Source: Oncomelania hupensis | Lineage: Eukaryota; Mollusca; Gastropoda; Littorinimorpha; Pomatiopsidae | Length of the DNA stretch: 64,000 bases | Direction: 5' to 3' | NCBI GenBank assembly: GCA_036898135.1 | Contig: CM072516.1 | Coordinates: 26,120,062-26,184,061 of the forward strand | Part shown: positions 1,060-63,065 of the stretch, piece after piece | Layout of the letters: every line of letters begins with the position of its first letter | Numbering within the stretch: the stretch's first letter is position 1 | Translations under genes and position numbers: made by a program | The notes under the pieces: generated by a model | Seen by the model: the letters and a program-made list of their open reading frames with translations, nothing else | Database searches by the model: none | Told to the model about the DNA's origin: nothing

Positions 1060-2234
1060 TATGTAGCTGAATTATTTGGATTTTACTGTTACGGATAAAG
1101 ATAGGTCAAGAATCTTTCAATTGAATAGAAATAAAATTAGGTATTTGAGTTATTTCTACTGTCAACATCTTAACGGGATATGAACTCCTGCTTATGCAAT
1201 TGTTTGACAGCATGGGATTGCTGAGGTTGTATGAGTCCAGTTTACAATTCAAGACAATAAACTACTATGTACTAGGTTGGATCGCCCATCTCACTACGAA
1301 GTCGGTATTCACAAACTAGCAGAGCATTATGGTTTAGCAAGCTCGGTTTCGTACCCAGTTGCTATTTTGCATGTTTTCTTTGCGCCATTTTTTTTTTAAA
1401 ATCTCATATCTTTATGAGTCTTTGAGATATTTAAGGCGTGAAAAGGCGTGAAACCTCAAACAGCAAATTGACATAATGGTACGGACTAACATACGTATAT
1501 TTATGCATGCACTCCGTGTATTAAGAACCGCAAGCGCATTAGCCCACGCTATGCCTATAGGTACGTTGTATATTCCAAGTGCCTCTTGTACACCTGTGTT
1601 GAGAGCCTTATTATGCATCTGTCACAACATTTTTTAGGTCAATTTTTCTGCTCACTGCACTGGGAAATCCCACTCATTACCAGCCCGTGTCCCGGCCCCT
1701 GCAAGTTCACATTAGGCCAGTCAGTGAATCAAGCTATTTAATCTTCCGAAATGCTCGTGACTATAAGACAATAGTAATTAATAATAATTACGCTTGACCG
1801 ACCAAGGTCACTCGTATTACTGCACGAAGATACCTGGCTGCATTATTGAAGCCGGATACACTGCCTTGTTCATGGTCATGTGCAACAACACATGCACCCA
1901 CCTATCATAGTTTATATTCTTACCACGTGTGACAAAACAAGCGGAACTTGACCCCCTCTAACGGACGTGTACATCGATGCATGTGCATCTGTGCACCACT
2001 ACCCTCTTTTCCGCTTACCTGCCTACAACATATAACATACAACGTGACCTGCATTCCAAGCAGACTTTGATATTGTAAACCTGAGTACTAGTGAGGTTTA
2101 GTATTGATGTGAGTGGTGCAACAGTAGATCTATATTCTAATTAGTAGTTTCTGGCGTCGTGTCCAGATTGAAAGAACGGAAGTAAACTGCCCAGCAAGCT
2201 GAAGCGATCGCGTGTTTAAAGCCAGAGGAGTATA
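1060..2234. other. Unannotated AT-rich spacer
   Basis: Only short open frames without recognisable motifs occur here. I see no splice-bounded coding segment, tRNA or clear repeat. Confidence 0.5.
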
Positions 2235-2300
2235 AGTTAAGATAGGTTAGGTAGGTAGATTAAAGTCCCGCGTCACATTTAAGCGAATAGGGGACTGGGA
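2235..2300 (-). mobile_element. SINE 3' tail fragment
   Basis: GGTAGGTAGATTAAAGTCCC is the reverse complement of the GGGGACGTTAATCTACC tail found at 19800-19850, 23060 and 58440-58480. A poly-G run (2306-2318) follows. Confidence 0.45.
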
Positions 2301-2364
2301 AAGGGGGGGGGGGGGAATCGGGCAAGACTATGAGCTACCCCGGCCCCACTAAGTTAAGATTGTT

Positions 2365-2500
2365 GCTGAATTGTTTTTATATAACGCTTTGCCCGCTCAA
2401 AGATCGCTTTAGGCATGGCCGACAACAGGGTCTAACTCCAGCCGCCCCAAACCGCCACTTGCTGCTTAATGCGTATTGTTTAACGCCCCAGCCAAATAAA
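2365..2500 (-). mobile_element. Degenerate SINE body
   Basis: Reading on + it has AACGCTTTGCCCGCTCAAAG, then GGCCGACAACAGGGTCTAAC and CCGCC..CCGCCACTTGCTGC. This diverged copy matches the SINE body at 41695-42015, which has GGCCGATACAGGATCTAACTC and CCGCCCGAGGCGCC in the same order. Confidence 0.45.
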
Positions 2501-2557
2501 CTAGCTTATGCAAAGCACACACTCACACGAAATAGAGCCGTACATTATCAGGGCAAC

Positions 2558-2643
2558 CAGGAAGTAGGTCTACTAGGGGTATAGTGTAAGACGTGGCGTC
2601 CAGGAAGTAGGTCTACTAGGGGTATAGTGTAAGACGTGGCGTC
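2558..2643. repeat. Perfect 43-bp tandem duplication
   Basis: Two identical 43-bp units beginning CAGGAAGTAGGTCTACTAGG lie head to tail (2558-2600 and 2601-2643). The absence of mismatches implies a recent duplication. Confidence 0.95.
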
Positions 2644-3059
2644 CTCGTTCTTTCACTTGTGCAAGAATAATGATGTTGAAGAATTAATCGACATACCGTG
2701 CTGTGGTATCACACATTAGAGTAGCATCAGAACGATTAACTTGAGCAAACTGTTATTTAAAGGGATAGCACCCATCCTAGTATAATAATATTACATTACT
2801 CGTATTGTAGCGATGCTTTCTTGAAATAGGGTTAGTTTTTTTTTAGAGGACCTAACGTAAGGTATCTAGATCCCATTCGCCTTTACCATTTATTAACCGG
2901 CCAGGAGTAGAAGACAGGTGAAATATTCTTGCGTGTAATTAAGATAGAGGTGTAAACTATGTTCTTAATGATGTATAAATGTCGTTGCTTTTGTTTTAGA
3001 TATGATAATGGAGGAGTAGCTTCCATACTTTTCTTACTCGTGTGATCTGGCGTTGGCGT

Positions 3060-3156
3060 TGAGCTGGTATTATTACATTACATGGTTATTGCTTTAGTTT
3101 CAGCGGATTCTTCTGAGCCAAATCAGGACCAGAATTTGAGCTGGTGTTATTACATT
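3060..3156 (-). mobile_element. Truncated retroposon stub with 20-bp target duplication
   Basis: A 57-bp insert (3080-3136) carries, on the minus strand, TCCGCTGAAACTAAAGCAAT and an ATGTAATGTA tail. It is the 3' end of the family whose full copies are at 55315-55888 and 62468-63053. It is flanked by TGAGCTGGTRTTATTACATT at 3060-3079 and 3137-3156, which differ at one base, as expected of a target-site duplication. Confidence 0.85.
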
Positions 3157-3188
3157 TAACGTCGTATGCCGGCATACGAGACGTTAGA
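3157..3188. repeat. Short near-perfect palindrome
   Basis: CGTATGCCGGCATACG (3163-3178) is perfectly self-complementary. It sits inside an outer TAACGT/ACGTTA pair. Confidence 0.85.
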
Positions 3189-3189
3189 C

Positions 3190-4147
3190 ATAAGAAATTT
3201 GATTCGTCCAAAGGATTACATTTGAAAAAATATTTCCGGCCATGGAAAACACAAAGAATATACAATAGGGGGTAAAATAATACTAATTAGATTTAAAGGT
3301 GTGAATTGAGAAGGCCCCGGACATATGTTTACTAACAACAAACATCACAAAAGCTGTCTCATCTCTTGACCGACTTCAAATAATTGGTTTCGCATTGCAA
3401 TCTCTATTGCCTTGTATTTTGTGCTATTTTGTAGCACTACTGTCCCGGTGTTGTTTCCTTTCCTCTGTTCCTGTATATTGGCAGCCAGTGGAAGTATGTT
3501 TGTTTTGTAGGTATAAGGATCACTCTTTTAGTTCTTTTTTAATGTAATTATTTTTTTTTATTATTCATTTATTTATTGATATCTATTTACACAAATGTGG
3601 CGGTCATTCTGTCCAACCCAGTCCATTGTGCGAAGGCATGCGTGGGGCGTATACGTCTGTGGTCAGATAGGCCTACAACCGTTTATAATTCAATAATTTC
3701 GTGTTTTGTTTTTTTCTATATTACTGGTATAACTTTTTCAGATCTATGCATGTGTCTTCTAAACGATCTGCTGTGGATATGGTCATGCGCACGCACGCGC
3801 ACGCACACCCTCACACACACACACATTTTGGCAATTTATTCAGAAATACACACATTACACACACACACACACATATATCATGCACATTCACGCACGTACA
3901 TGTTACAGGCGCATAAACACCTAGGTCTAGTTAAAACTACGAGTATTAACCACGAAAAACAGTGCACAATAATGTTTGATATATGGAATATTTACTTAAC
4001 ACAAATTTTCTCTCCATACAATCGCAAGGTATTTTTTTCACAAACACATTTTGCAATTTGTTTCGTTTTACATTGATATTTACGTTAGAAATATTTAGTT
4101 AATGGCATGTTGTAGTGAAATGTCGAAGCAGAAACAAACTTGTCATA
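3190..4147. other. Spacer with CA-rich microsatellite
   Basis: There is no gene. A (CA)n/(CG)n-rich stretch at about 3786-3880 produces low-complexity His/Thr open frames, which I do not regard as coding. Confidence 0.6.
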
Positions 4148-4372
4148 GGCCAAAAAAAATGTCTGTTTCCGGTATCCCGACCAACACTAACTTTTTGGGC
4201 CGACCCTAAACTTTTTTGGGATCGTCTTGAAAAAAGAATTGAAAAAAAAACACAACAAAACAATCGCACCCAAGTGGAAAAGTTTTTTTTTTTAATTTAA
4301 AAAAGAACCCTACCTAACAACTCCATTTTTTCCATATGTTACCGTAAACAGACTATATAATGTTTTTTGGCC
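4148..4372. mobile_element. 225-bp TA-flanked MITE candidate
   Basis: Imperfect terminal inverted repeats start GGCCAAAAAA and include GTCTGTTTCCGGTA at the left and TACCGTAAACAGAC at the right. A TA dinucleotide lies immediately outside each end (4146-4147, 4373-4374), the target preferred by Tc1/mariner elements. There is no coding capacity. Confidence 0.65.
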
Positions 4373-7300
4373 TAATAATGTTTACTAATGACTGAGGATG
4401 AATAACTGTCAATTAGCATGTACTTGTATACTTATGCACAGATAGTCACACTAGTAAAAATATGTGGTACATATTAACAGTAAACAGTAATAAGACTATG
4501 TGTCACAATCCTTATTTGTCATAATGTTAATGTGTCACGTTCGTTTTCCAAAAACCGTCTATTATGTCAGCGTTTCTCAGTAAGCCAAAATCGATGCATT
4601 ATCGTTGGTAATATATATTTCTAGATAGGATGCGTTATTGCGTGCGTACAACTGCTTATTAAATGTTCTGTTAATGTGCTTCAAATCTGACTCCAGACTT
4701 TTAACAACTTCAGCCTGCTCCAGACTCTCTGACTGAGATCTCTGACACACACACACGCACACACACACAAGAAAATGAGAAGATACAACAATATTAAACC
4801 TTTATTTTAAAAAGGAAAAAAAGATAACGAGCAAACACTAAATTGACATTGTTCATGTTGTCATAATATGTCATCGTATAATGAGAGTTGACACATCCAG
4901 CCTGGGACGAATAAATATGTCTCCATATAAACGATTTTCTTGGACCAATTAATAAGCGCCTGGAGATGTTTTACCGGTTTCTAATGGTTTGGCCGTGTCA
5001 CATTAGGCCGCTCACTGAACTAAAGGGTGAGAGAGGGTATCACATATTTACATGACTGACTTATATGGCATACTAACTGACAAGCTTGCTAACCAACTGC
5101 TAACTAAAAATTTCTAGGTAAATTGAAATACCCCCACCCCTCCCACTCTCAATATGCACTGTTCAGTATATCTATAGCGTTCATAGGTTTTCAGTAGAAA
5201 GCACAATTTTCGTCCACATTGACTTAAGAAAGTGCAAGTATGAATTACATGAAGTGCTGAGTAGTAGTAAAACTAGTAACAAATAATCAAATGGGTTGTC
5301 TTTTTAAAAAAAAATACTAAAACGCAAATATAAATGACAAAAAGTGCTATGCGTAGTAAAAAATAGTATAACTAATCAAAATCGGCTGTCGTTTCTTTGT
5401 TTGTGTATGGTTATTTGTTTTAATTGTTTTATATTATTTTTTTAATAAAATACTGAAAATGCGTTTTGAACAAAAAAGTCAACTTTGTAGCGATGGGCTG
5501 ATCGATTGGTTGACCAACGGACCGACACTGAATGAGTGATCATGAGTTGAAGTGCCTGTATACCAAAAATCATCAAAACGGGTCCAGCCGATGTTGGTCA
5601 CTGACCTAAGTGATGCTCCTGTGAAGTTTGATCAAAATTATTATAGTACAGAAATCGTAACATGGTGTAGTTTTTTATTTTGTCCACAGCAGGAATCGCA
5701 AAAAAGCAGCAAAGTGCGAACTTCTCGAGGCACATAGTGCTGGAAGTAGTGCAACAGCATGGATGTCACTCCAGTGCTCCAGTGCGCTGTGGCACGCTTT
5801 CATCTGCCATTTTTGTTGCCGTAAACAAATCGAGCAGAATGCGCAGGGATTGGGTCGATTTGGTCACGGGACTAACATAGCCCGTTCTTTCATACAAAAC
5901 TATGACACCTTGCACGTTTAAGCAAAGGATACACTTTTTTCTCTTGCGTTTTTCTCCGAATGTATTACGTTTTATGGAATGACACTTCGCTGACTAGTAG
6001 TGCGTGACGAACAGTCTAAGGGAAAAAACCTCGATTTTTTTCAAATTTGCACATTGCACGTTCTTTCAGTGGAGTCTTCATCTGTTAAGTGGTCCTTTAG
6101 ATGTGGCTAGCAACGAATCGACAGACACACAGACCAACCGACTTTGGGCTCGTTTTAATTCCCGACTAGTTTGTTTTTGTTTAAAGTGAAAAAACAAATA
6201 TAAAACAATTAAATGGAAAATTAATCACTTAAGTTTCACAGTTTCGTAGAAAGTGGATTCAGGAGGGGTGTTGTGTGGGCGGGTCTGGGACATGGTTGGA
6301 TTTTCTCTCTTATTTTTCTCTGCTTATACAAGGGAGAGTGAGTAGGTTGAGGATCATGGAGAGGTGAGAGGAGGTAGGGGGGGGGGGGGCGGAAGAGAGA
6401 GAGAATCACAATGGGTTCTTGTCTTGCTCTTCGATATTGTTAGAGTAACGTTCAAGCCTAGCATAATTGTTGTTCAGTTAACTGATACAATCGATGATGA
6501 TACGGAAATTGACGTTTAGAATACTCAGCGTTATAATGATTGTCCCTTCATAGTTTTCATGCAAGTAACTGTTATAAGTGTTAGTGATAACTGTTTGAGC
6601 GTTTTGGAAAATGATACATTTCCAAGAAAGTTGCTTTTGCGTGGTAATAACTAATCTGCCTGCCTGTTTTGTCTGACGTTGCCATCGGTAAAAACAAATC
6701 TGTAAGCTGTCTGTCTGTCTGTCTGTTTGTCTGTCTCTCTCTCATATTTTCTGCTTTCTTTTTTTTATTATAATCTTAATCCTATTACACGGTTGAATCT
6801 TATCTCTTTTTGTCACCTTTTGTCTTTCTGTTTGTATGCGTGAAATAAAATAATGTAAGCAGATATATGGATAGATAGACAAGTAGATATATGGATAGAA
6901 AGCTTAGTTAGAAAGCACAGCAACCGGAGTGCAGCGCCATGCAAGTCAAGGTTGAGCAGAGCCCATCAGTACCAACCCCGCACATTACACGATGAATCGC
7001 TTTGTGTATCGAACAATTCAAAAATAGGAAGCAGACAGTTCAAGCACAAGAAATCAGGACAGTCACATGAGACCCTCCTCCTACCCCGGCACTTCTATCT
7101 AACCTCTTCTAGACAGAAGCACTTTAAATCGTGAATATGGATCGCTGTATTTTTTTTTCAGCGATAAGTAGGGGAATAGCCAGGGTAAATTAAATCGGCG
7201 CCAAGTTCTTATTGCATGCATGTGACTGGCCTACATAACTGACATCCGTTTGTTTTGTGTTGACGTGACCAACGCAGTGTCATTAATTCTGTCTTTGTTG

Positions 7301-8276
7301 TTTTGCTTCTGCTGCACTATTCCTGCACGTGATTGATGTAAGGGTGAACATTGACGCTGGCAGAAGCCAGAGCGAAAAGCGAATAGGGGCGTATATGCCA
7401 AATGTTGTGTCTTCTGTATTATTGAAGCTAATCAGCTAACTTGTTTGTGAAATGGTCTAAACGTTGAAGTTTGAAAGAATATTTAAAATAAAATGATTGA
7501 TAATAGTAGTAAGCTACTATTTGTTTATGGATCTGTTTTGCCAATTTTATGTTGGCCTTGCGATCCACTAGTTTTGCCTCGGGGAATTCTGTTCCTGTTT
7601 CTCTTCTGACGTTCACTTAACTTTTCATGACCCCATCACCTTGTTTCAACCAGTTTACACTTTCAGCACATTCCCCCCCCCCTCTCCTGTTTTCCTTCCC
7701 CGAATCAGCATCACCATGGTCAAGACCACCAATGCGCTGTAAGTTGGTCGTTGCCTTTTTTGGTGGTTGTTGGGTGCTACCGAACTGTGGTATCGAGTTT
7801 TCCAAAAGCGTTACAAGCGCCATAAATTTATGAGGTGTTTCGCTTGCCACCGAGGTTGAAAACAGATTTATACCGATCACTCTTGTTTGACATCATTACA
7901 TGTGACTGTTCTATGTTGTAACAATAATCTAGTAAAACGTTTGGGACACTTGTACAGCTGAAACAGGGCGGCTTGTAACCAGCGTTTGGTGCGCAATACG
8001 GTCGACGGCTGACAGCTTTGTTAATACAAGTTGTGCATCATTTTGTGTTTGTTGAACGTGAGTACATTCTCAGTGGTCAAAATAACATAAGGGCTTTTTG
8101 TCTGCAAAGGTTGCAAATCTACTTTTAAACAATAGTAGCTTGGTTGTGTGAGTGGCCGTTGTCCCTCCTTAACCGAGCAATTTTGATCTGAATGTTTGGC
8201 TTTTCACCACGACCATTCTTTTGTTTATATCCAAAGTCAGTAGCGTCTGTTCCTTTTTTCCCTGATGGCCATCTTC
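4373..8276. other. Gene-poor spacer
   Basis: No open frame here has a motif or splice context I can support. It contains a C/A-rich tract near 5130, a poly-G run at 6378-6389 and a (CTGT)n stretch near 6708-6735. An AT-rich segment at about 5490-6180 with GATCGATTGGTTGACCAACG-like sequence may be an old DNA transposon, but I could not define its ends. Confidence 0.45.
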
Positions 8277-8314
8277 TCTCTCTCTCTCTCTCTCTCCCTT
8301 CTCTCTCTCTCTCA
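8277..8314. repeat. (CT)n microsatellite
   Basis: Nearly pure CT/TC tract interrupted by one CCCTT. Confidence 0.95.
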
Positions 8315-8772
8315 TATTTTTTTCTTGCCAGTCCGCTTTCTCGCTCACTCTCTCTATGAAAGAGGAAGAAGTTGTTAGGCCGATCTTTGCTTCAAGCCTT
8401 AGGACCCTGTGGTATACACATAGAGGCTACGGTGAAAATAAGACCTCTACACTTTGCACTGACACGTGGATAACGAAAGGAGATGAACGACTTGCTAATT
8501 ATAAACTTACACGCGACACGATCACAGCTAGACCGATTTCCGACCCGCCGCTTTTTCAACCACATGTTGAATATTTATGGTGTATCTCAACACGCGTAGC
8601 CTACAAATCTTTCTCCCAGAGTGTAATCCAAAAGCAGTTGATTGTGTAAGCTAACATCCATAATGAACTAGTTAACCTATGTGTGTTTGAGTACAATAGA
8701 ACGCCTTAACATTACATTCATTTGAGGCACGTAGCCTTAAAGTTTCCACTATTCGTGCAAACTGGTTTGTGT

Positions 8773-8901
8773 GCAGGATCTGCATGCATGTGAGTCCACA
8801 CACCCTTGGAAACTGTGTGTGCAGTATATGCATGCATGTGAGTCCATGTGAGTCCACTATCCCTTGGAAACTCTGTGTATTGGGGGATGGCGGGTGCGTG
8901 C

Positions 8902-28038: not shown

Positions 28039-28994
28039 ACTATCTTCATGCAAAGAACTTGTTTCAAACTACACAGTCTGCATATCGCCCTGACCACAGT
28101 ACTGAGACCGCACTTTCCCGGGTTATGAATGGCCTCTTGCTCGCGATGAACAATGGCCAGCTCTCCATATTGACACTTCTCGATCTTTCTGCAACCTTTG
28201 ACACTATCGATCACCACATTCTCCTAGACCGTCTCAATAATTCATTTGGCATCTCTGGCACTGTTCTCAACTGGTTCAGATCTTATCTCTCTGGCAGAAC
28301 GCAGACAATTTTAGTTGACAACCTCAGATCCAAACCATCTAGCCTCTCTCTAGGAGTTTCACATGGATCAGTCCGGGGCCCAGTTCTTTTTATCCTCTAC
28401 ACCAAACAACTTCCTACTCTCATCATTCGTTATTCTATAGCCAGTCAGTCCCCAGTAAACATACGCTTCTTGGGAACTCCCCGTGCCAAGGCTGGGAATT
28501 ACTTGGGGTTCTTGGCATTGGCACACCAACCTTGCCCCAAGCAAGGCATCCTAGTTATAGCCAGTCTGATCGCGCGCGTGATTGGATGCCAAGGAATTCC
28601 CACTGCAGCTAAAAATAAACGTCTTGGCGTCCAAGCATTAGCCTAGAACAATCTGCAGAATCGAAATTGTTAACAAAACAAAAATAATTTAAAAGGGTAT
28701 TTATTGCATTCTATAAGACTAGAAAACTTTATATTTATTTGTATTCACTTATAGTTATTTTATTTTATTTTAGTTGTAATTCTTTTCAACCGCGGGTCTT
28801 AACCGTTCCGCGCAATTCAAATTTCCTATCCCGGTCGGTTTCTTCCCTTTGTGTCTTCACATACAGTCTCGAACGCACGTTTAACTCGATCTTGGATTTA
28901 TCACTTTGCAAATTTCGACTGGGATTTGTGACTTCGCAGATTTTGTTTTGTGAGTATTGTTTATTTCAATTTTTTTTTCATTCCATTGATCAGA

Positions 28995-31900
28995 ATGTCG
29001 CAAAACAGACGAATTCGGAAAAGCGTTGAACAAACTATTTCTGCATGTGAAACTGAAAGAGAAATGGCATCTATCTCCGTTGAAAAACTAGCTAAAATGG
29101 TGGACAAAGATCTAATAGCCTTACCCTTAGGCTTAGGACTAGAACCTGAAAGTAACCATCGAAACAATGAACAGCAACAGCAAGCAAATAGTGGAAACCC
29201 TGCCTATTGAAACTGAGGAATTTTATCTTTGACCAGGCAAAACTGTGATTTTAATTGGTTTATTTTTTATCAGTAGGCCTATTTTCAAACACCTTTTAAA
29301 TTATGCTGTAAACTAATGAGTATATATTTCACTTTTCTATATACACATTAATCTATAAAACCTTTGAAGAACATAAAATAATTGTATTGTCGTGTTTTTA
29401 TTACAAAAATGTCACTGTTTTGTAATTGTAGTGCTTAAAAGCCTCATGCTTCAAAACAGTTCAAGGCGCTTCTGTTTTTAAGTTTTGCAGCATGCATGCG
29501 CATGTACTGTTTTGACTTGTACTTGTTGACATCCTTTCAATATCTTAGTGTGTTTATATTGACTTGCTGCCACCATGTAGCTGGCAGGCAAAATTGTAAG
29601 ATACAGAAGTTAATGGTTGAAATGTACTGTTTAGGTTCTCTAGAGCCATATAGCTGTGTTGGTTTTATGATATTGATCTTCATAATGCTAACTGAAACTA
29701 AGCATGTATACGTCTTACTATAGTCAATTCCACCACAATTGTAGATTTTGTAAGGGTGTAAAATATCACCAAGTTATCAACCCCCCACTCCCCCATACAC
29801 TACAGTTCTTCAACTTCAAGAATTCTATGTTCTTTGTATATGCGGCTTTATTTGCTGAACTTGAATAACTTTTATTTTTCAGGGAGGAGGAGGATGAGGA
29901 GGAGGAGGACTTGCCATCTACACCCAGGTATGAATTTATAACATAGCACACTTAAATTAATATTCCTATGATAGCTAATAGTGTTTGATTGTTGAATATA
30001 ATAAGGCACTTTTCTAATGTTACACACAACATAATAAACTTAATAAATGACATATGTATGTGAATGTGTGTGTTTGCCCAAAATAATTTCATGTAACATT
30101 TGTTGTCGTTTAATGTTAGCATGCATAATAAGCATAATTATATTCATGTGTGACTGTGTAGTTTTATCCTCATTGTCATTATGATTGTTGTTATTATTGT
30201 GATGTTTATTCCTTGTTGATTGTAATTGTACACCACAATGTAATTTCTTGTAAAAGATAATAAAGTTGTCTAATCTTATCTTAACATACTTGTAACTTTA
30301 CTTAGTTAAAGGTGTGTGTTTAGAGAAAATCTTTGTGCATAGTTTTTTTTAAATCTTTTCTTTTTAATAGAAGGCTGATATGTTTTTGATTTACATGCAA
30401 ACTTTTTTATGTAAAAGGAAACGTTTCAAGCCCACCTCCAACCACACACCTCCAGGGCTGCCTCAGGCTTCATCATCACCAATCAGCCCACCTCCACCTC
30501 GGGAATATACAAGGATAGGAGATTAGGACAACCTTCGATAAGCTTCGCTTCAACAGTGATGTCCACTCCAGGTCCAATAGATGTCACCACTGGTATGTGA
30601 ATCCAGTTGCTTTTCATCGTGTTTATTTTTAGGGAAATTGTTAATCAACAACTAGTAAATCTTTTAGAATCATTTGTTGCTTGTTTAGACTTAACAAACA
30701 AAAAACAAAAAACACTTGATTAAATATGTTTTACAATAATTACATAGTAGTTAGTATTGAGTTGCACAGTGCAGTATATTTATCCAGGATGTTTACAAGT
30801 TATTTTAATTGTGAGCCCTACAGTGCAATTAATTGTTGCTCATTTACAAGATTCCTACTTTCTATCTCACCACCAGTGAAAGTTGTAACTGTATTGTACT
30901 GGAAAGAGCTGGCCATATTTATTTATCTCTTGATCTATTTAATAAAAAAATGTGAGAGAGGGGTAGTGTTTTAAAGTGACAACACTATCAGTGTTTGCAT
31001 GGAAAAACAAGTCATTTTTAAGAAAACCTAGTATATTTTGGACTATGCAAAAATGTCATACTTGTCTTTTAACTATTTTTGTCTTTTGCTGTGTGTGTTT
31101 AGCTACAAGTACTCAGGAGGACTACAGGCCCTATTTTAAGGCCATATTAAGAAACCAGGAGCAGATGTCCTCCCAGTTGAAACAGCTTCTACAGGAAATT
31201 TTAAAACTAAGGCATGCATCGAGGGAGGTGGAGGTTAAGCTAGGCGGAAGTGCTGGCAGAACCCGATCTACCTACTGGATTTACTTTTCCAATAGATACA
31301 GAGGAGGGGGGCTGGAGCAAGAAGGAGCCAGCAATGAGGCGATGAGGAAAGGAATGGTAAGCAATAGTTGCTTTAGTATTACATTATTGTTGCTTTAAAT
31401 ATTGACTCGGAAAAAAAACAATTTTACTACACATGCAGTTTTGATTCTGTGGCTTCTAGGATTGAACTATTGTGGTTTAAGGTTGTTTACTGAGTATTCC
31501 CATGGTGTTTTCCTCATGTGTAGCATGGAGTGGTGCACATACCTGTCAAGGGGTTTTCGGGTTGTGGTGTAGCAATTTAACAAAAAAACATAGCAAATGG
31601 AGGTTTGGTGTAGCACTAATGTGAATCACGCGATTCGCAACAAAACTAAAAACTTCTGCATCCAATATTATATAAACACACACATCCAATGTGTTTACAA
31701 ATTTATTGTAAAATCTTGTTAATGCACAACACTTTAGCTGTTACCATTATCATTATAAACATTTTCATGTATGTTTTTCAAAATAAAAGTAAAAATGAAA
31801 ATAAATAAATAAATAAATAAAACATAAAAATTAAAAAAACAAACAAGGGAGACAATCACTGACACAAAAAAAGCAGATGAAATTTTTTCCCCCAAACAAA

Positions 31901-33384
31901 TTTGCTTATTCACAAAACATGGTTTACAATGCCAAAAAAAAAGAACTATTAGCATTGCACAAAAGCTTATACCAATTAATTTAATAAAAATATAACTAAA
32001 TGGCAGCTAATATAATATAAAAGTAATCAAAAAGAAATGCATAATGTTAATAACATAAAACAAGTAAATAAAAAGAACAGTCCTATCAAAATGTACACAA
32101 TGAATAAAAATTATTCATTAAAATAAAAAGCCACAAAAATTTTAATAATAATTTGTAAAACAAAGTTGCACAAAGACTGATCGTAGACTGAAGTTCTGAA
32201 CGAACACGTGATGTGGAAGTGCGGTGCTTTTACTAAGTGTCTTTAAACCGGACTCGACCGGAACAGACTACTTTCGCGCAAAAAACCCCTTGGTTACTAT
32301 CGTCACTTTTGAAAAATTGCGTAGCAGCTTTGTGATACGCCGTAGCAATGAAAAAATGTTTAAAATGCGTAGCGCTACGCAAAAATCCGTAGCACTTGAC
32401 AGGTATGGGTGCATAATTTTTGGTCTTGATACTGAATGCAGACTTAAACAGTACCAACCTAACAGCTGCCATTCCCTTGGACCTAAAGCAATAATCATGT
32501 AATGTAACATCTGCCATGCTAGCATTTGTTAGCCCATTTTCATTTTAATATTATCTTATAGAAATAAGCTTAGAATACAGGAAAAGAAATCCTTATCTGT
32601 CTTACAGGAGCAATACCTGTTCAACCTGGGCGGCAAGGACTACAAGGAGTCGCTCCGGACCATTGGAGCCTGTTTGATGACACCCAGGTAGAAGGGACAT
32701 TTTAACCGGACAGGAAGCAACCAGACAGGGCCAAAGAAAACGGGCGTTTTCCCAATTTCAAGTGCTAAACCCTCTTTTTTTCAGTAAGTGCACGTCTACA
32801 CCGAATTCAGACATGGCAACTTAGAATTGTTTTCTAATTTAACTTAGTCCTTCTAACCTCCGCCACTAACTCTCCCCACCCATATTTTTTCTACGTTAGT
32901 AGCAGAAGTGAATTTCAGCTTTTGTTGTTACCATAAATCTTGAATTATAATTTGGTCTTGTTTTATTGTTTAAAGCATTATGTCTTTGAGGTTTTATTTC
33001 TTTGCCTAAAACATTGGAATACAGAAAATCCAAAATGAGGCAGGTTTTTAATAATTGTGATATGACTTAAAGGTCTAAAGTGAAACGCATTTTTCTGATA
33101 GCTCAGGGGCATTTAATACTTGCCTTGCCTGCCGGCTTACGGTCCCTTTATAAATTTGGGTGCTTACTAAGTGTATGTTATATGGAAAACAAGTGAACAT
33201 ATTTTTTATATTGGTTGGTCTTTCTGTTGTATACTGAATTGACCCATTTTCTGTATATATGTGTGTTTGCAGATGCAGTCCAGAGCCATCACAAAACGGA
33301 CTTGACTCAGTTCAACTCATATCTGAGCACATGGCTGAGCAGTTGGAGGGACCGGATGGACGGAGGAAAAAAAAAATAGAGTAG
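28995..33384 (+). CDS. Spliced gene of unknown function inside the 6.55-kb element
   Basis: Five downstream segments have proper splice sites: 29883-29927 (acidic EEDEEEEDLPSTP), 30418-30592 (RKRFKPTSNHTPPGLPQ, Pro/Ser-rich), 31103-31356, 32608-32687 and 33273-33384. The last three join in consistent phases (0 then 2). They encode YFKAILRNQEQMSSQLKQL (coiled-coil-like), then YLFNLGGKDYKESLRTIGA, then a basic GRRKKKIE end and stop. A possible first exon opens at 28995 (MSQNRRIRKSVEQTISA), but its donor is unclear and its phase does not fit the next exon. Exon 30418-30592 meets a stop (about 30523) in the frame set by the acidic exon; a different frame is open to its donor and matches the phase of the next exon. 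That suggests a one-base lesion or a mis-modelled exon. I do not recognise the protein. The GGKDYKESLRTI stretch faintly recalls DUF4806 domains. Acidic plus basic NLS-like tracts suggest a nuclear protein. Confidence 0.6.
30060..30288 (+). mobile_element. LINE 3' tail in an intron of the element gene
   Basis: AT/TG-rich 3'-UTR-like sequence ends AATAAAGTTGTCTAATCTTA with a short (ATCTT)n tail. It resembles the tail styles at 16418, 34340 and 46130. Confidence 0.45.
31538..32407. mobile_element. 870-bp DNA element with CATACCTGTCAAG inverted repeats
   Basis: CATACCTGTCAAG (31538-31550) and CTTGACAGGTATG (32395-32407) are perfect inverted termini, bracketed by GGTGCA direct repeats (31532-31537, 32408-32413). 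It sits in an intron of the element-borne gene. The interior is AT-rich and encodes nothing recognisable, so it is non-autonomous. A GTAGC/GCTAC motif recurs near both ends. Confidence 0.88.
32473..32505 (+). mobile_element. 33-bp retroposon stub with 12-bp target duplication
   Basis: TGGACCTAAAGCAATAATCA then TGTAATGT matches the extreme 3' end of the 62468-63053 element. AACAGCTGCCAT (32461-32472) and AACATCTGCCAT (32506-32517) flank it. Confidence 0.8.
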
Positions 33385-34563
33385 CTAGATAAGAACAATG
33401 TCCATATAAACAAATACAATAATATAAAACAGAAAACTTAGTTTATTAATTTTAAAAAGAAAATTCAACTAATTAAAAAATAAAAGTAACGATTATCAAT
33501 TTTTTTCTTTAAAAATTTTGTTACTTCAGTTTGATTTTTCGCCACTAACAACAACATGCGCGAAGCCGGTCTGACCCAGTTGCAGCCAGTTTGAGGCGGT
33601 TTGGATTAGCCTATGTAGACATTGCGGCTAGCCTACCCTGCATCAGTCCAAAGCATGGGTATTTTTGTCTTGATTGTGTATGCCTGTCAGAGAAATTATG
33701 TACAAATTTAAAATGCAACCCAAAATCTGTAATGGAGAATTTTGGGGAATTTCTGTAAATATGTGTTTGTGAGAGATTCTTTTTATTCTAGCGGCTGTAT
33801 TTGAATGCTTAGCTTAATTTCTTTGTCTCATTGGTGTGCGTGGGTTAAAATGCTTGGAAGGGGTGTGAATGAGTGTTGCAAGGACAGATTAGAAAAAAAA
33901 AAATTAGTCTAATATCTCTATTCTTGTTGTTAGTAAAATATTAAATCAAATCACATTATTTGTTCTTGATTTTTTTTTCACTGTGTTCATAGATTACATG
34001 GGTTCTATACAATGTATGTATTTTTTTTAAACTGCATACCCCTTTTTTTGTGTCTGAGCTGAAATATAATTCATGTATTTAACGCAAATTAATTTTAAAA
34101 AAATTAAATTTATTTCTTTAATTTTCAAAAAAAAAATAAAGAAAATTTATTTCTTTAACATTTTACCCAAATTAAAGAAAATTCATTTCTTTAAAGAAAA
34201 AAAGTATAAAGACTATTAACTCTGGCTATCTGTAAGTATACAATATAAGTGTGTGTGTATAGTGGCAGTGAAATATAAATGATTTTAATTTGAAATGTGT
34301 TTTATATGTTGTGCAAATTTGGTTAATAAATTATCTGATCTGATCTCATTTGTCATTGTAGGTGCGTATTTGTAAAACATCTCCTGAAACTGATACTTTG
34401 AGCCTCATCACACATCTCCTGCTACTCATACTTTGTACTTCATCACACCTACATACATGTCCTAGATCACATTGTGTCAAAGTTATTTCAAGGCTCTATA
34501 GGGTTTATGAATAACCAACATTGGGCATAGGTTAGAGGGGCCAATCAAGGGGCCAAGGTTGTG

Positions 34564-34920
34564 CCGACATTGGGCTTAGGTTGGATGCCAAGCATGTCCC
34601 AAGCCTGGGCCAAGGGTTGCTATAGTAGGTACAAGGTGGTGCCAAGGTACCGCCGACATTGGGCTGAGGTTGGATGCCAAGCATGTTCCAAGCCTGGGCC
34701 AAGTGTTGCTATAGTAGGTACAAGGTGGTGCCAAGGTTGTGCCAAGGTACCGCCGACATTGGGCTTAGGTTGGATGCCAAGCATGTCCCAAGCCTGGGCC
34801 AAGTGTTGCTATAGTAGGTACAATCAAGGTGCCAAGGTTGTGCCAAGGTACCGCCGACATTGGGCTGAGGTTGGATGCCAAGCATGTCCCAAGCCTGGGC
34901 CAATGAGCAGTTCTGACCTG
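34564..34920. repeat. ~90-101-bp minisatellite, four units
   Basis: Units start at CCGACATTGGGCT (34564, 34653, 34753, 34854) and each includes TTGGATGCCAAGCATGT and CCAAGCCTGGGCCAA. A 182-codon frame across it is a repeat artefact. Confidence 0.95.
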
Positions 34921-35002
34921 GCCCGAGCCAGTTTGCCATGCTTGTGCCAACTTGGCATCCAAGGTTGTGCCATGCTTGGCAATCCTTTGGCGTGTTGGCT
35001 GG

Positions 35003-36340
35003 GTCCTTTGCTGACAATACTTAAATCCATGATTCATTTTCTTTGGACAATATATACGCTGCCGTCCGTCGCGTGCAGAATTGTGTCACTGACGACAAAC
35101 AGTGGATGACATGCAACAAATTCAAACTGAATGACGACAAAACTGAAATTCTCCTCATACATTCTCCTAACAGACCACTGCCTTCTTCTACTTCTTCCTC
35201 TATTTCCATCTGTAACTAAGAAATAAAACTATCATCCTCTGCCAGAAACTTAGATGTAACCATCACAGACACTCGTTCCATGGACAAGCACATCACAAAC
35301 ATCTGCAGAGTTGCATACTTTGAGCTCCGTAACATCAGCGCCATTAACCTTCTTTCCTTTAATACAGCCAAATCTCTCGTCTGCTCCCTTGTTCTGTCCA
35401 AATTTGATTACTGCAACTCTTTCCTGTCCGGTTTTCCTCTATATTTTATTGACAAACTTCAAAAGGTACAAACTCAGCTGCAAGATTAATTTTCAGAGCC
35501 AAGAAACGTGTCCACGTTCAACCATTGCTCCACCAATTTCACTAGCTCCCGATTACTTCCCGTATCATGCACAAAACCTCCAACCTCTGCTTTAACTCTT
35601 TCGCTGATCCTCACTTCCCAGTCTATCTCTCCGACCTTCTACCTGTCTATACTCCATCCCGACTATTACGCCCTTCATCCGACACCAGAATGCTTTCCAT
35701 TCCTTGGGTTAGAACCAAAACGATTGGCGAACGGGCTTTATCGTTCTCTGCTCCCTGTTTAAAACGTCGTACGGCTTATGATCTGTATGCTTGCTGCCTC
35801 CTACTCACTTTTAGGTCCTGAACAGATTGGCTCATGGGTGTAAACGGGAAAGATAAAGGAGAAGAATGTGATGTGGGTGTGTGTTGTGTGCGTGTGAGCG
35901 CGTGGCTAAAATGTTTGCTTAGGTTAGTTGGATTAACAGCCTTTACTGATTTAACATTTAATACTCAATATTTTTATAGCTACTGTTTTTTGTGCGTACT
36001 TTTAATGGTGTATGTATTATTTTTATACATTTTAATTTATCATTTTTCTTGTGTGTATGTTCCTCAATATGAGACTGTTTATTTTATATTGTTGTGCTCA
36101 TTTAAGATGGCAAAACTATAATAGTTCGCATTACGAGGCATATGTTGGGGAGGGTGTGTGTGTGGTGTGTGTGTGTGTGTGTGTGTTTGGCTTGCTTCTT
36201 TGTTGCTTGTTTCTTTATTGGTAACACTATGCTTTTAAACTGCGTTGTGAGTCTGTTGAGTGCAGTATCAATGCAAAGCAAATAGAGCTTTTGGATATAT
36301 GCGCTATAACAAATTGACTGTAATACATAAATAAATAAGT
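35003..36340 (+). pseudogene. Interrupted LINE ORF2, part 2: RT C-terminal half and 3' UTR
   Basis: Begins TTTGCTGACAAT (FADN, the degenerate catalytic motif) in frame with the RT cut at 28451. It continues CVTDDKQWMTCNKFKLNDD, TEILLIHSPNRPLP, SMDKHITNICRVAYF and FDYCNSFLSGFP. Further pieces are in shifted frames (YTPSRLLRPS, IGERALSF). Several stops and frameshifts make it dead. The 3' region has a TATGCGCTATAACAAATTG motif and a short (AATA)n tail near 36330. Confidence 0.88.
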
Positions 36341-36795: not shown

Positions 36796-38646
36796 CTTTT
36801 TTTTGACACTTTTGAGATTTAATTGTTAAGGCCACCAGCCCATCACAATGGTAGGCATCACATACAATATAAAATAATCTTTAAATAATCTTTAAAATAA
36901 AAGGACAATATTAAATACATATCATTTACAAGTTTCATAAAAAAAAAATGTTTCGAAAAAGCATTCGCATCATATCACGCATGAAGGTAAATTTCGATAA
37001 CATACAACATTGCAGTTAAAAACACATTCAGTGTAAATTTTTCTTTCTAATAGCAATTGCTTTGTAAATAAAGTACGCAACATTTCTAATAATTGTTTGA
37101 TTTTGGCTGGACATAAGCAGTACAAATCTGGATAAGCATGGCTGCCTTGTAAACTTCAACGGAATAAGATCATCCCGAATGTCTGTGTATTTGGGACAAA
37201 CCAGTAACATATGCATTTCAGTCTCTTGAACATTTGGACAAAAAGGACAATTAACATCTATTAGACGATCCTTTCTAAATTCAACAAAGTGTGCATTCAA
37301 CGGTGACATTCCAATTCTAAACCTAATAATTGCTTTCCTTACTGCAATATTTCTAATTAAATTTAAGTATTCACCGCAAACCACTTCACGTTTGAAACAG
37401 GAATATACATAGTAAAAAACATGGTCGTCTAGCGCAGAACTCCAATCTTGTTTAAAACAATCAACAAGTCTTTGTTTAAATTCAAAAATAAACAGTTTTA
37501 CATTTCCAACACCCTGTGTTTCCCAGACAACTCCAAAACCAAACCTGAACAATACGTTTCGAACTTTGCAAGCCCATGTAGTATAATTCTGTTGCTGCAG
37601 ATACAGTAACATATTGTATGCTTTCTTCGAAAATCTGTGATTTCCAAGCATAGTCAGTCTAAGCCAAAATTTCACACATCTTGTGTATGTCATAACATGC
37701 AAGGGATATCGCCCTGTTTCACCATATATCAAGTGTCTTGGAGATTTGGTGCTAACTCCCAGAAAACGTTTTATTGCTGACAAGTGAACCCTTTCAATAC
37801 ATTCCTGGTCAGCAGTTAAACCCCATATTTCTGATCCGTATGTTAAAATTGGCTGAATTTGTGAATCAAAAAGTGTAAAAAAGACTTTGGGTGAAAATTC
37901 TCCAAGTGACCAAAGTAACTTCATGATGGCTGAAACGCCCTTCCTTGCTCGTTCAGCTAGATCCTTAAAAGTATAGGAAAATGTTAATTTGGTAGACATG
38001 AAAATCCCTAAATATTTGTACATATTAACAATTTTCAAAACTCGTCCATCAAAAAACCACTGTTCTCTCTCGCCCAAAAATCCTCCATTACGGAATACAA
38101 TAATATTCGATTTGTCCAAGTTAACAACAAGACCCAGTCGTTTTGCACTTTCACAAAGAACATTCAGCTGATTTTGCAGCCCAACTATAGTATCTGAAAA
38201 CAACACTACATCGTCAGCAAAAAGCAAAATAAACAATTCAATGAGTTCTGGGGGTAATTGGATCCCGTGTTTACCATGATGTACAATATCTTTCGTCAGT
38301 TCATTAATAAAAAGGGAAAACAGTACAGGAGAACATACTTCTCCCTGCTTCAGTCCCTGTGGACACATAAACTCATCAGACAGGTCTGCACCAGCACGAA
38401 CACGTGCTTTAACAACATTGTACATGCTCTGTATTGCTTTTGCTAATTTACCATTCAAACCTGATGTGTATAGAACCTTCCAAAGCTTCTCTCTACTAAT
38501 GGAATCGAAAGCCTTCCGAAAGTCTATGAAGGCTACATAAAGTTTTCTGTGTCTTAATAATTGTTTCTGAACCAGAGCCAACAGAGTAAATATGTGGTCA
38601 GCAGTACTATGTTCCTTCCTGAAACCAGCCTGCTCTTCTCCAACGT

Positions 38647-38648
<2 letters not shown>
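36796..38648 (-). mobile_element. 5'-truncated LINE in a GA microsatellite
   Basis: It has an open RT frame, a 3' UTR of about 230 bp and a short A-run (poly-T on +, 36797-36805). It is bounded by GA-rich microsatellite on both sides (36770-36794 and 38649-38695), consistent with insertion into a (GA)n tract. Confidence 0.8.
37028..38648 (-). CDS. Reverse transcriptase of a non-LTR retrotransposon, 5'-truncated
   Basis: An uninterrupted minus-strand frame runs from the GA repeat border (38648) to a stop at 37028. The longest ATG-started form has 517 codons, but the frame opens upstream with EEQAGFRKEHSTADHIF, an RT signature, so the true start is lost. Motifs in order are YVAFIDFRKAFDSISR, CPQGLKQGEVCSPVLFSLF, the catalytic LFADDVVLFS, LVVNLDKSNIIVF and MYKYLGIFM. 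Near the C-terminus CPFCPNVQETEMHMLLVC gives a CCHC-type finger common in LINE ORF2 proteins. No stop or frameshift is visible, so this is the youngest-looking LINE in the window. The endonuclease is absent. Clade is uncertain. Confidence 0.9.

Positions 38649-38696
<48 letters not shown>
38649..38696. repeat. (GA)n microsatellite
   Basis: Pure GA tract at the 5' truncation point of the LINE. Confidence 0.97.
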
Positions 38697-38697
<1 letters not shown>

Positions 38698-39326
38698 TAA
38701 GAAAAAAAACAAAGAAAGAAAGAAAGAGTTTAGTTCAGGAGTTTGCCTGCATTTTAAAAATATTTGGATCTGTTTTAACCCTGAAACTGCTGCGATAAAC
38801 GACAGATGTATTTCCCCCCACCCCCCCCCCCCCCCCACCCACCCCCTCCCATTAAAACCTGAAATCTGTTCGGTGAGAAAAGAAGAGCTAGGCCCCTCCT
38901 CCCCACCCCACTACCTTTCTTCAATAAATATGTAATTATAATAATTATACATGATTGGGAAATTAAATTAGTAAAAAAACAAACAAATAAAAAATTCTTA
39001 GGAGAAAAAAAAACAGCATAGTGTCACGCAGCGGAATGAGTTTGCACAGTTAAATGTATTCTTATCTCCTTATAACATGAGCGATACTTTGAATGGGAGA
39101 TAATCCTGTTTATGTTCGACCCGACATTGTACAATGTAGCTGTGGGAGGTAAGCAAGGGACGTAACTTCAGCTAAGATGACCAATTTTGAGCGACCTTTG
39201 TTACAGGAAGATAATCCCTAATGTAGCGAACAGCTAAGTCGACCATTAATGTAACATAATAGTTTATAAGCTTATCCTTAGTGTGAAGTGTCCGGTATTA
39301 TTTTATCATTGTCCTGTGTTGTGCAG
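38697..39326. other. Intron end
   Basis: It contains a poly-C tract (38815-38846) and otherwise unique AT-rich sequence leading to the exon 2 acceptor. Confidence 0.5.
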
Positions 39327-62455: not shown

Positions 62456-63065
62456 TAATCAAATTAACCCCCCCTCCCCCCACCGTTGGGGTGCCGGGGG
62501 TTTCAGTATAAATAGTATTCCCACTTTCTGGAAATTTAGTGCTTTAAATTCCCACTGTCGCTGTCTTTCTCATTTGCTCTTTTCATTCATGCTCTGTTCT
62601 ATCAATCTGCTATACTATCTTCTTCTTCGCTAGACCAGTCCCCTACCTTTTTTCTTGAAAACTCTTCCGGGACAAGACTCCTTATTTGTGCATGAGGTCT
62701 GTTGGATCAGCTTGGGAATATTGGACGCTTTCTGCCAGGTGGTCACTAGGGCTTCCTATGATGTTACTATTTAGCAATGTAGGCATTTTATATGTATGTG
62801 TTTTGTTGTATAATTTATAATGATGTTTGTATTCTATTTTGTTTTTGTAAACGGGGGTTCGATAAATTAGAGTACAGCCTCAGCGTCCCCTGCGTGGGAT
62901 GTCTTTATTGTAAAGTGACTGGCTGGTGGAGAGCTTTCAGTTTTACCACTAGGGTTGTTTCAGCAGATCTTTGATGCGGATCAGGGGTTGTCCGGTCCTG
63001 ATTTGGCTCGGAAGAGTCCGCTGGACCTAAAGCAATAATCATGTAATGTAATGTAATCAAATTAA
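62456..63065 (+). mobile_element. ~586-bp (ATGTA)n-tailed retroposon, second copy
   Basis: The element (62468-63053) is collinear and nearly identical with 55315-55888 from CGTTGGGGTGCCGGGGG to the ATGTAATGTA tail. TAATCAAATTAA at 62456-62467 and 63054-63065 is a perfect 12-bp target duplication. The 5' start coincides with that of the other copy. Confidence 0.9.

Follow-up and report, generated by a model that had tools for sequence, protein, structure and literature searches.

A DNA transposon without its own transposase inside a LINE of Oncomelania hupensis, probably a deleted copy of a two-gene CACTA/EnSpm-like family

The stretch of Oncomelania hupensis DNA studied here (the window, 64,000 nucleotides; G000:C6:26120062-26184061) belongs to a searched genome of 1.45 Gb in 428 contigs and contains a LINE whose reverse transcriptase is interrupted by an insert (Table 1). 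The LINE reverse transcriptase 5' of the insert matches the RVT_1 profile (E=1.4e-12), and the LINE frame joined across the insert reads ...SQS|FADNT, in the reading frame of both flanks. A genome search with the joined flanks (155 bases) returned nine rows, two of which are the two halves of the window locus itself; five of the nine cross the join and cover 154 or all 155 bases at 85–93% identity, and two weaker rows also span it (bases 1-117 at 87% and bases 4-155 at 78%). These uninterrupted LINE copies elsewhere are paralogous empty sites of the insertion. With RVT_1 halves in one frame and empty sites in other LINE copies, the proposal of the first-pass annotation that an insertion splits the LINE is borne out. 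The window also holds a second LINE reverse-transcriptase frame at 37028-38731 (-), with an RVT_1 match of E=1.5e-26.

Table 1. Features of the interrupted LINE locus, in window coordinates.
Feature	Position	Strand	Basis
Target duplication TC, left copy	28449..28450		Flanks of copies compared
Whole element, 6553 bp, non-autonomous	28451..35003	+	Ends common to many copies; empty sites in LINE copies
5' terminal inverted repeat CCCAGTAAACA	28451..28461	+	Same in 10/10 complete copies counted
Pair of subterminal motifs TTGGATGCCAAG, one of them mismatched, 5' end	28582..28634		Motif scan; 2 per copy in 10/10 complete copies
5' remnant of transposase gene, ATG at 28995, frame broken	28995..29243	+	Same start in L023
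Deletion junction	29243..29244		In longer copies, ~3.4 kb or more at this point, with the first module of gene 2 and most of the transposase gene
Shortened, frame-shifted exon of gene 2 covering the coiled coil and the first part of DUF4806	31120..31356	+	237 nt, against 264 nt in 5/5 longer copies
Nested 871-bp element, ends CATACCTGTCAAG, 5-bp duplication GTGCA	31538..32408		Copy comparison
Exon of gene 2 covering the second part of DUF4806, with an internal TAG (approximate end)	32608..32782	+	Copy comparison, profiles
Last gene-2 exon (end approximate)	33273..33384	+	Comparison with L029
Tandem array, ~100-bp unit, one TTGGATGCCAAG per unit	34552..34903	+	Repeat comparison, motif scan
Inverted copy of subterminal motif	34951..34962	-	Motif scan
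3' terminal inverted repeat TGTTGGCTGGG	34993..35003	-	Same in 9/10 complete copies counted; L014 has 1 mismatch
Target duplication TC, right copy	35004..35005		Flanks of copies compared

The element runs from CCCAG to CTGGG and extends one base further out on each side than the interval first annotated (28452..35002). Ends were paired by proximity in 25 copies, 23 with both ends readable and two unreadable. The start CCCAGT is intact in all but two of the 25, and those two have damaged 5' ends; at the 3' end, CTGG is followed by G wherever it is readable (23 copies). The outermost C and G therefore belong to the element. The imperfect inverted termini noted earlier are supported. The 4-bp duplication GTCC, however, is not: the true duplication is the 2-bp TC, and GTCC appears when one host base and one element base are added to it at each junction. 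The 2-bp flanks are equal in 14 of the 23 readable copies (~1.4 expected at 1/16; P=6.6e-12), the least certain match being C5:27.157, whose ends lie 34 kb apart within a duplicated stretch. The matching flanks are TC, AT, GA, CA, TT, TA, AA, AC and GT. Nine copies have mismatched flanks: L022, L026, C5:53.27, C5:27.212 and five copies on contig C12 (L014, L019, L020, L021 and C12:51.65 Mb) whose flanks are shared or mosaic with those of other C12 copies. Several C12 copies (among L014, L019, L020, L021 and L029) share a flank on one side and not on the other, a pattern that points to duplication or recombination between copies.

Further copies and empty sites, the two things that the first-pass annotation had proposed to look for together with 4-bp duplications, are both present in the genome. 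The 5' end of the element (the first 249 bases of the annotated interval) has at least 33 genome matches and the 3' end (the last 113 bases) at least 40, some of these rows being pieces of one copy. A subset of the matches was sampled, as 20 loci in 10-kb stretches and as short end stretches of further copies. Among the 21 copies compared (the window copy and the 20 loci), 10 are uninterrupted across 29243/29244 and five (L017, L020, L021, L022 and L023) hold ~3.4 kb or more at this point; the others are broken otherwise, or the region is uncovered. L023 is complete from end to end (9265 bp), with interrupted transposase frames. The extra DNA of L023 and L029 encodes a transposase, and the ATG retained in the window is probably its true start. 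The earlier statement that no transposase is recognisable therefore stands for the window copy and fails for the family, since longer copies encode one. Over three interior stretches, seven copies differ from the window copy by 0.4–3.1% substitutions. The insert is a mobile, recently active cut-and-paste DNA transposon without a transposase of its own, and its family is young and carries two genes.

We consider it likely (probability about 0.85) that the window element is an internally deleted, non-autonomous copy of a family in the CACTA/EnSpm-like clade, known as CMCT. L029 contains an uninterrupted 535-aa piece of the transposase, and the profile check of longer copies that had been suggested for it finds DUF4218 over the cut-off (E=1.7e-6; 28.3 bits vs a cut-off of 27). 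Six of the seven DUF4218 matches in the genome lie, by position, inside copies of the same family; the seventh is L030. Seven residues (D30, D112, C131, C134, H334, H338 and E358) are invariant in 22 transposase sequences, and the same set is invariant in 45; they are presumably catalytic. They form the D-D-C2C-H3H-E signature of the CACTA/Mirage/Chapaev/Transib clade, as this signature is defined in PMC12730594. Relatives of the transposase are numerous in public proteins (1821 at E<=0.001 among 7976 scored), and the 120 matches listed include proteins of sea urchin, sea cucumber, limpet, Littorina saxatilis (58% identical), mitten crab and sturgeon. For the fold, a sea-urchin relative (P0061) was modelled, which is 45% identical over the aligned part and outside the family of the window element; the model predicts a RAG1/Transib fold followed by a BAH-like C-terminal domain, and residues 565-687 match BAH domains from chromatin proteins, DNMT1 among them. 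A search of PDB sequences with the transposase piece gave a single weak match (E=0.067). A pattern scan of viral contigs gave no match, and scans with the transposase alignment gave 35 pattern matches in genome contigs and 51 in viral contigs, none of them confirmed.

The first-pass annotation had favored a mobile element of a new or unassigned class. In favor of such a class, the window copy by itself lacks a transposase and departs from textbook CACTA elements in its termini and duplication. Longer copies with the same ends nevertheless encode a CMCT transposase, so a new class is not borne out and is now highly improbable. As for CMCT in the broad sense, the target duplication (2 bp) falls within the range of 2-5 bp and the RAG1/Transib-like fold is predicted in the modelled relative, whereas the CA..TG termini found "in most cases" are replaced here by CCCAG...CTGGG. 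Against the narrower EnSpm/CACTA definition, DUF4218 and the subterminal direct and inverted repeats are present. The EnSpm/CACTA pattern of CAC...GTG termini with a 3-bp duplication (PMC12730594) is absent, as is Transposase_21 (PF02992), which neither the 535-aa piece nor any of four relatives matches at E<=0.1. Based on its CCC...GGG termini and 2-bp duplication, the family is filed in the CMCT clade rather than with canonical EnSpm. The clade is already known; the DUF4806 partner described below and the BAH-like domain may be new.

The second gene of the family (gene 2) is spliced in longer relatives and encodes a conserved N-terminal module, a coiled-coil-like stretch and the domain DUF4806. 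The N-terminal module is separate, 3' of the transposase and upstream of the DUF4806 exons. Three exons of L029, when joined, match positions 4-90 of the 90 in DUF4806 (PF16064; E=1.1e-12) with 48.5 bits vs a cut-off of 25, whereas single exons reach only 23.3-23.7 bits. In the sublineage of the window, the first of the DUF4806 exons measures 237 nt in seven copies (window included), 244 nt in L011 and 246 nt in L015, and its shortening changes the reading frame inside the domain. The next exon carries the TAG in 8 of 9 sublineage copies (L014 is without it; L016 is unreadable). Some longer copies are damaged as well: the next exon has a frameshift in L020 and was not found in L023, and L021 has a stop. 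Because the window gene is frame-shifted, searches with its joined exons were empty, with nothing useful in Pfam and three candidates, none scored, among public proteins. A public protein search with the DUF4806 region of L031 gave 3277 candidates, none at E<=0.001. What had been described as a spliced cargo gene is indeed spliced in relatives, but in the window it is the damaged remnant of the element's own gene 2. Copies of the short sublineage lie at different sites, each with its own duplication, yet share the damage in gene 2; they were thus probably moved in trans, by analogy with the deletion derivatives of Spm/En.

Gene 2 also accompanies the transposase in other families. The only DUF4806 match in the genome at E<=0.001 (C5:74638453-74638704, minus strand) is 4.9 kb downstream of a related transposase (C5:74643576-74645117, minus strand). 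From 92 transposase rows, seven loci of other families (48-61% identical) were chosen and scanned up to ~7 kb downstream. Both gene-2 modules are plainly present in L031 and L032, and profiles built from these two and from the family of the window element were tested on families outside that set. L030 (N-terminal module 2.5e-11, DUF4806 part 2.9e-5), L052 (2.9e-8 and 1.1e-8) and L055 (0.0077 and 5.1e-5) match both profiles, L054 matches the DUF4806 part (5.7e-5), and L053 matches weakly with the N-terminal module alone (0.041); in 79.7 kb of background no ORF matched at E<1. In this chosen sample from one genome, all 8 families examined have gene 2 downstream of the transposase and on its strand, L053 weakly so. 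Captured host cargo was rejected as the main reading on this ground. In its remaining form, this reading makes gene 2 a passenger: a DUF4806 gene taken up once from the host and kept since without a role. The short sublineage spread although its gene 2 is broken, which implies that the gene is dispensable in cis, but a trans-acting function also predicts the loss of gene 2 from deletion derivatives. Since the arrangement persists alongside transposases only 48-61% identical, a passenger is improbable.

The ends of the element carry a 12-bp subterminal motif. With up to one mismatch, TTGGATGCCAAG occurs seven times in the window, always within the two ends of the element (0.41 expected). In all 10 complete copies counted, it occurs twice in the first 250 bp, three to five times in the last 600 bp and nowhere between the two ends (<=1 mismatch), which upholds the earlier claim of subterminal repeats at both ends. 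In maize, TNPA binds the subterminal repeats of Spm/En and is required together with the transposase (PMC2613891), and DUF4806 is called a BEN-type DNA-binding subtype in PMC11075544, on the authority of Pan et al. 2023. Based on these two points, gene 2 may be the animal counterpart of TNPA, a proposal to which we give even odds. The transposase from other copies would act in trans and cut at the CCCAG ends, and insertion would follow with a 2-bp stagger; the DUF4806 protein would bind the 12-bp subterminal repeats and help the transposase recognize the ends, as TNPA does in maize. A comparison of the gene-2 profile with PDB sequences gave five weak matches, none of them BEN.

The main rival of a TNPA-like role is a chromatin or anti-silencing factor that keeps the element expressed while the transposase alone handles the ends. 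An example of such a factor is VANC of the plant VANDAL elements, an anti-silencing protein that keeps its element expressed. The BAH-like domain predicted on the relative's transposase would make contact with chromatin plausible, and, according to PMC11075544, proteins with a BEN domain recruit chromatin modifiers. Conversely, conserved 12-bp repeats call for a specific binder, which in Spm/En is the second protein (PMC2613891). A chromatin role is rather unlikely as the explanation of gene 2, and one protein could serve both functions.

Of the known systems, maize Spm/En is among the closest to the window family. Both have a DDE transposase of the same clade and short, imperfect terminal repeats. 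They also share asymmetric subterminal repeats (a 12-bp motif in En-1), a second element-encoded gene and internally deleted copies moved in trans (probably so in the window family), as described for maize in PMC2613891. The window family differs in having CCC...GGG rather than CACTA termini, a 2-bp rather than a 3-bp duplication and a DUF4806 second protein. The fungal Plavaka and ESTA elements have the CMCT signature and 2-bp duplications as well, but different termini (TGT..ACA in PlavakaA, CATCA..TGATG in PlavakaB), and ESTA duplicates TA; their companion gene encodes a TET/JBP dioxygenase in place of DUF4806 (PMC12730594). Compared with Transib, ProtoRAG and RAG1, the family is set apart by its 2-bp duplication, the BAH-like C-terminal domain predicted in the modelled relative and the DUF4806 partner. 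The target duplication of Transib is 5 bp. DUF4806 proteins of animals such as zebrafish and Hydra contain the same Pfam domain; in the window family the gene adjoins the transposase inside the element.

Animal CACTA-like transposons could, as a tentative generalization that we hold to be possible and somewhat short of probable, be two-component systems, with a transposase of RAG1 fold and BAH-like domain and a DUF4806/BEN-type protein that binds subterminal repeats. Lineage-specific expansions of DUF4806 (e.g., in Hydra) would then be largely transposon genes, and some host DUF4806/BEN factors may descend from them. In plants, CACTA elements depend on a second protein that binds DNA, and its versions TNPA and TNP1 are described as sharing little similarity (PMC2613891). 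The domains enriched in Hydra include both DUF4218 and DUF4806, which appear in separate lists and unconnected in the relevant passages of PMC7642931. No paper linking DUF4806 to a transposase was found in the literature searched, mostly at abstract level. Should gene 2 prove to be the animal partner, DUF4806, so far a domain of unknown function, would acquire a role open to direct testing, and some of the expanded "gene families" of animals would be explained as transposon genes. The BAH-like domain is possibly chromatin-reading, and on a transposase of RAG1 fold it would suggest how these elements choose or read chromatin.

Three smaller observations concern L030 and the interior of the window element. 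The L030 family (from ~1345; also L056) seemingly has the 5' end CCCAATG and, within 300 bp, five CCAAG/CTTGG cores that resemble the subterminal core of the window element. A brute-force screen of this family for terminal repeats gave A/T-rich pairs that look like chance, and the candidate ends CCCAAT...ATTGGG with a GA duplication (1345-8792) were not relied on, having been picked among five TGGG candidates. The nested 871-bp element was inserted before the sublineage of the window spread; it is absent from L015 and L016, and L009 has GTGC-T-GTGCA at the site, resembling an excision footprint. A 30-bp piece of the element (window 32478-32507) is repeated at 63022, 55858 and 48972 with 93-100% identity, and 25 bp of it also occur at 3073; this stretch is probably a piece of another repeat.
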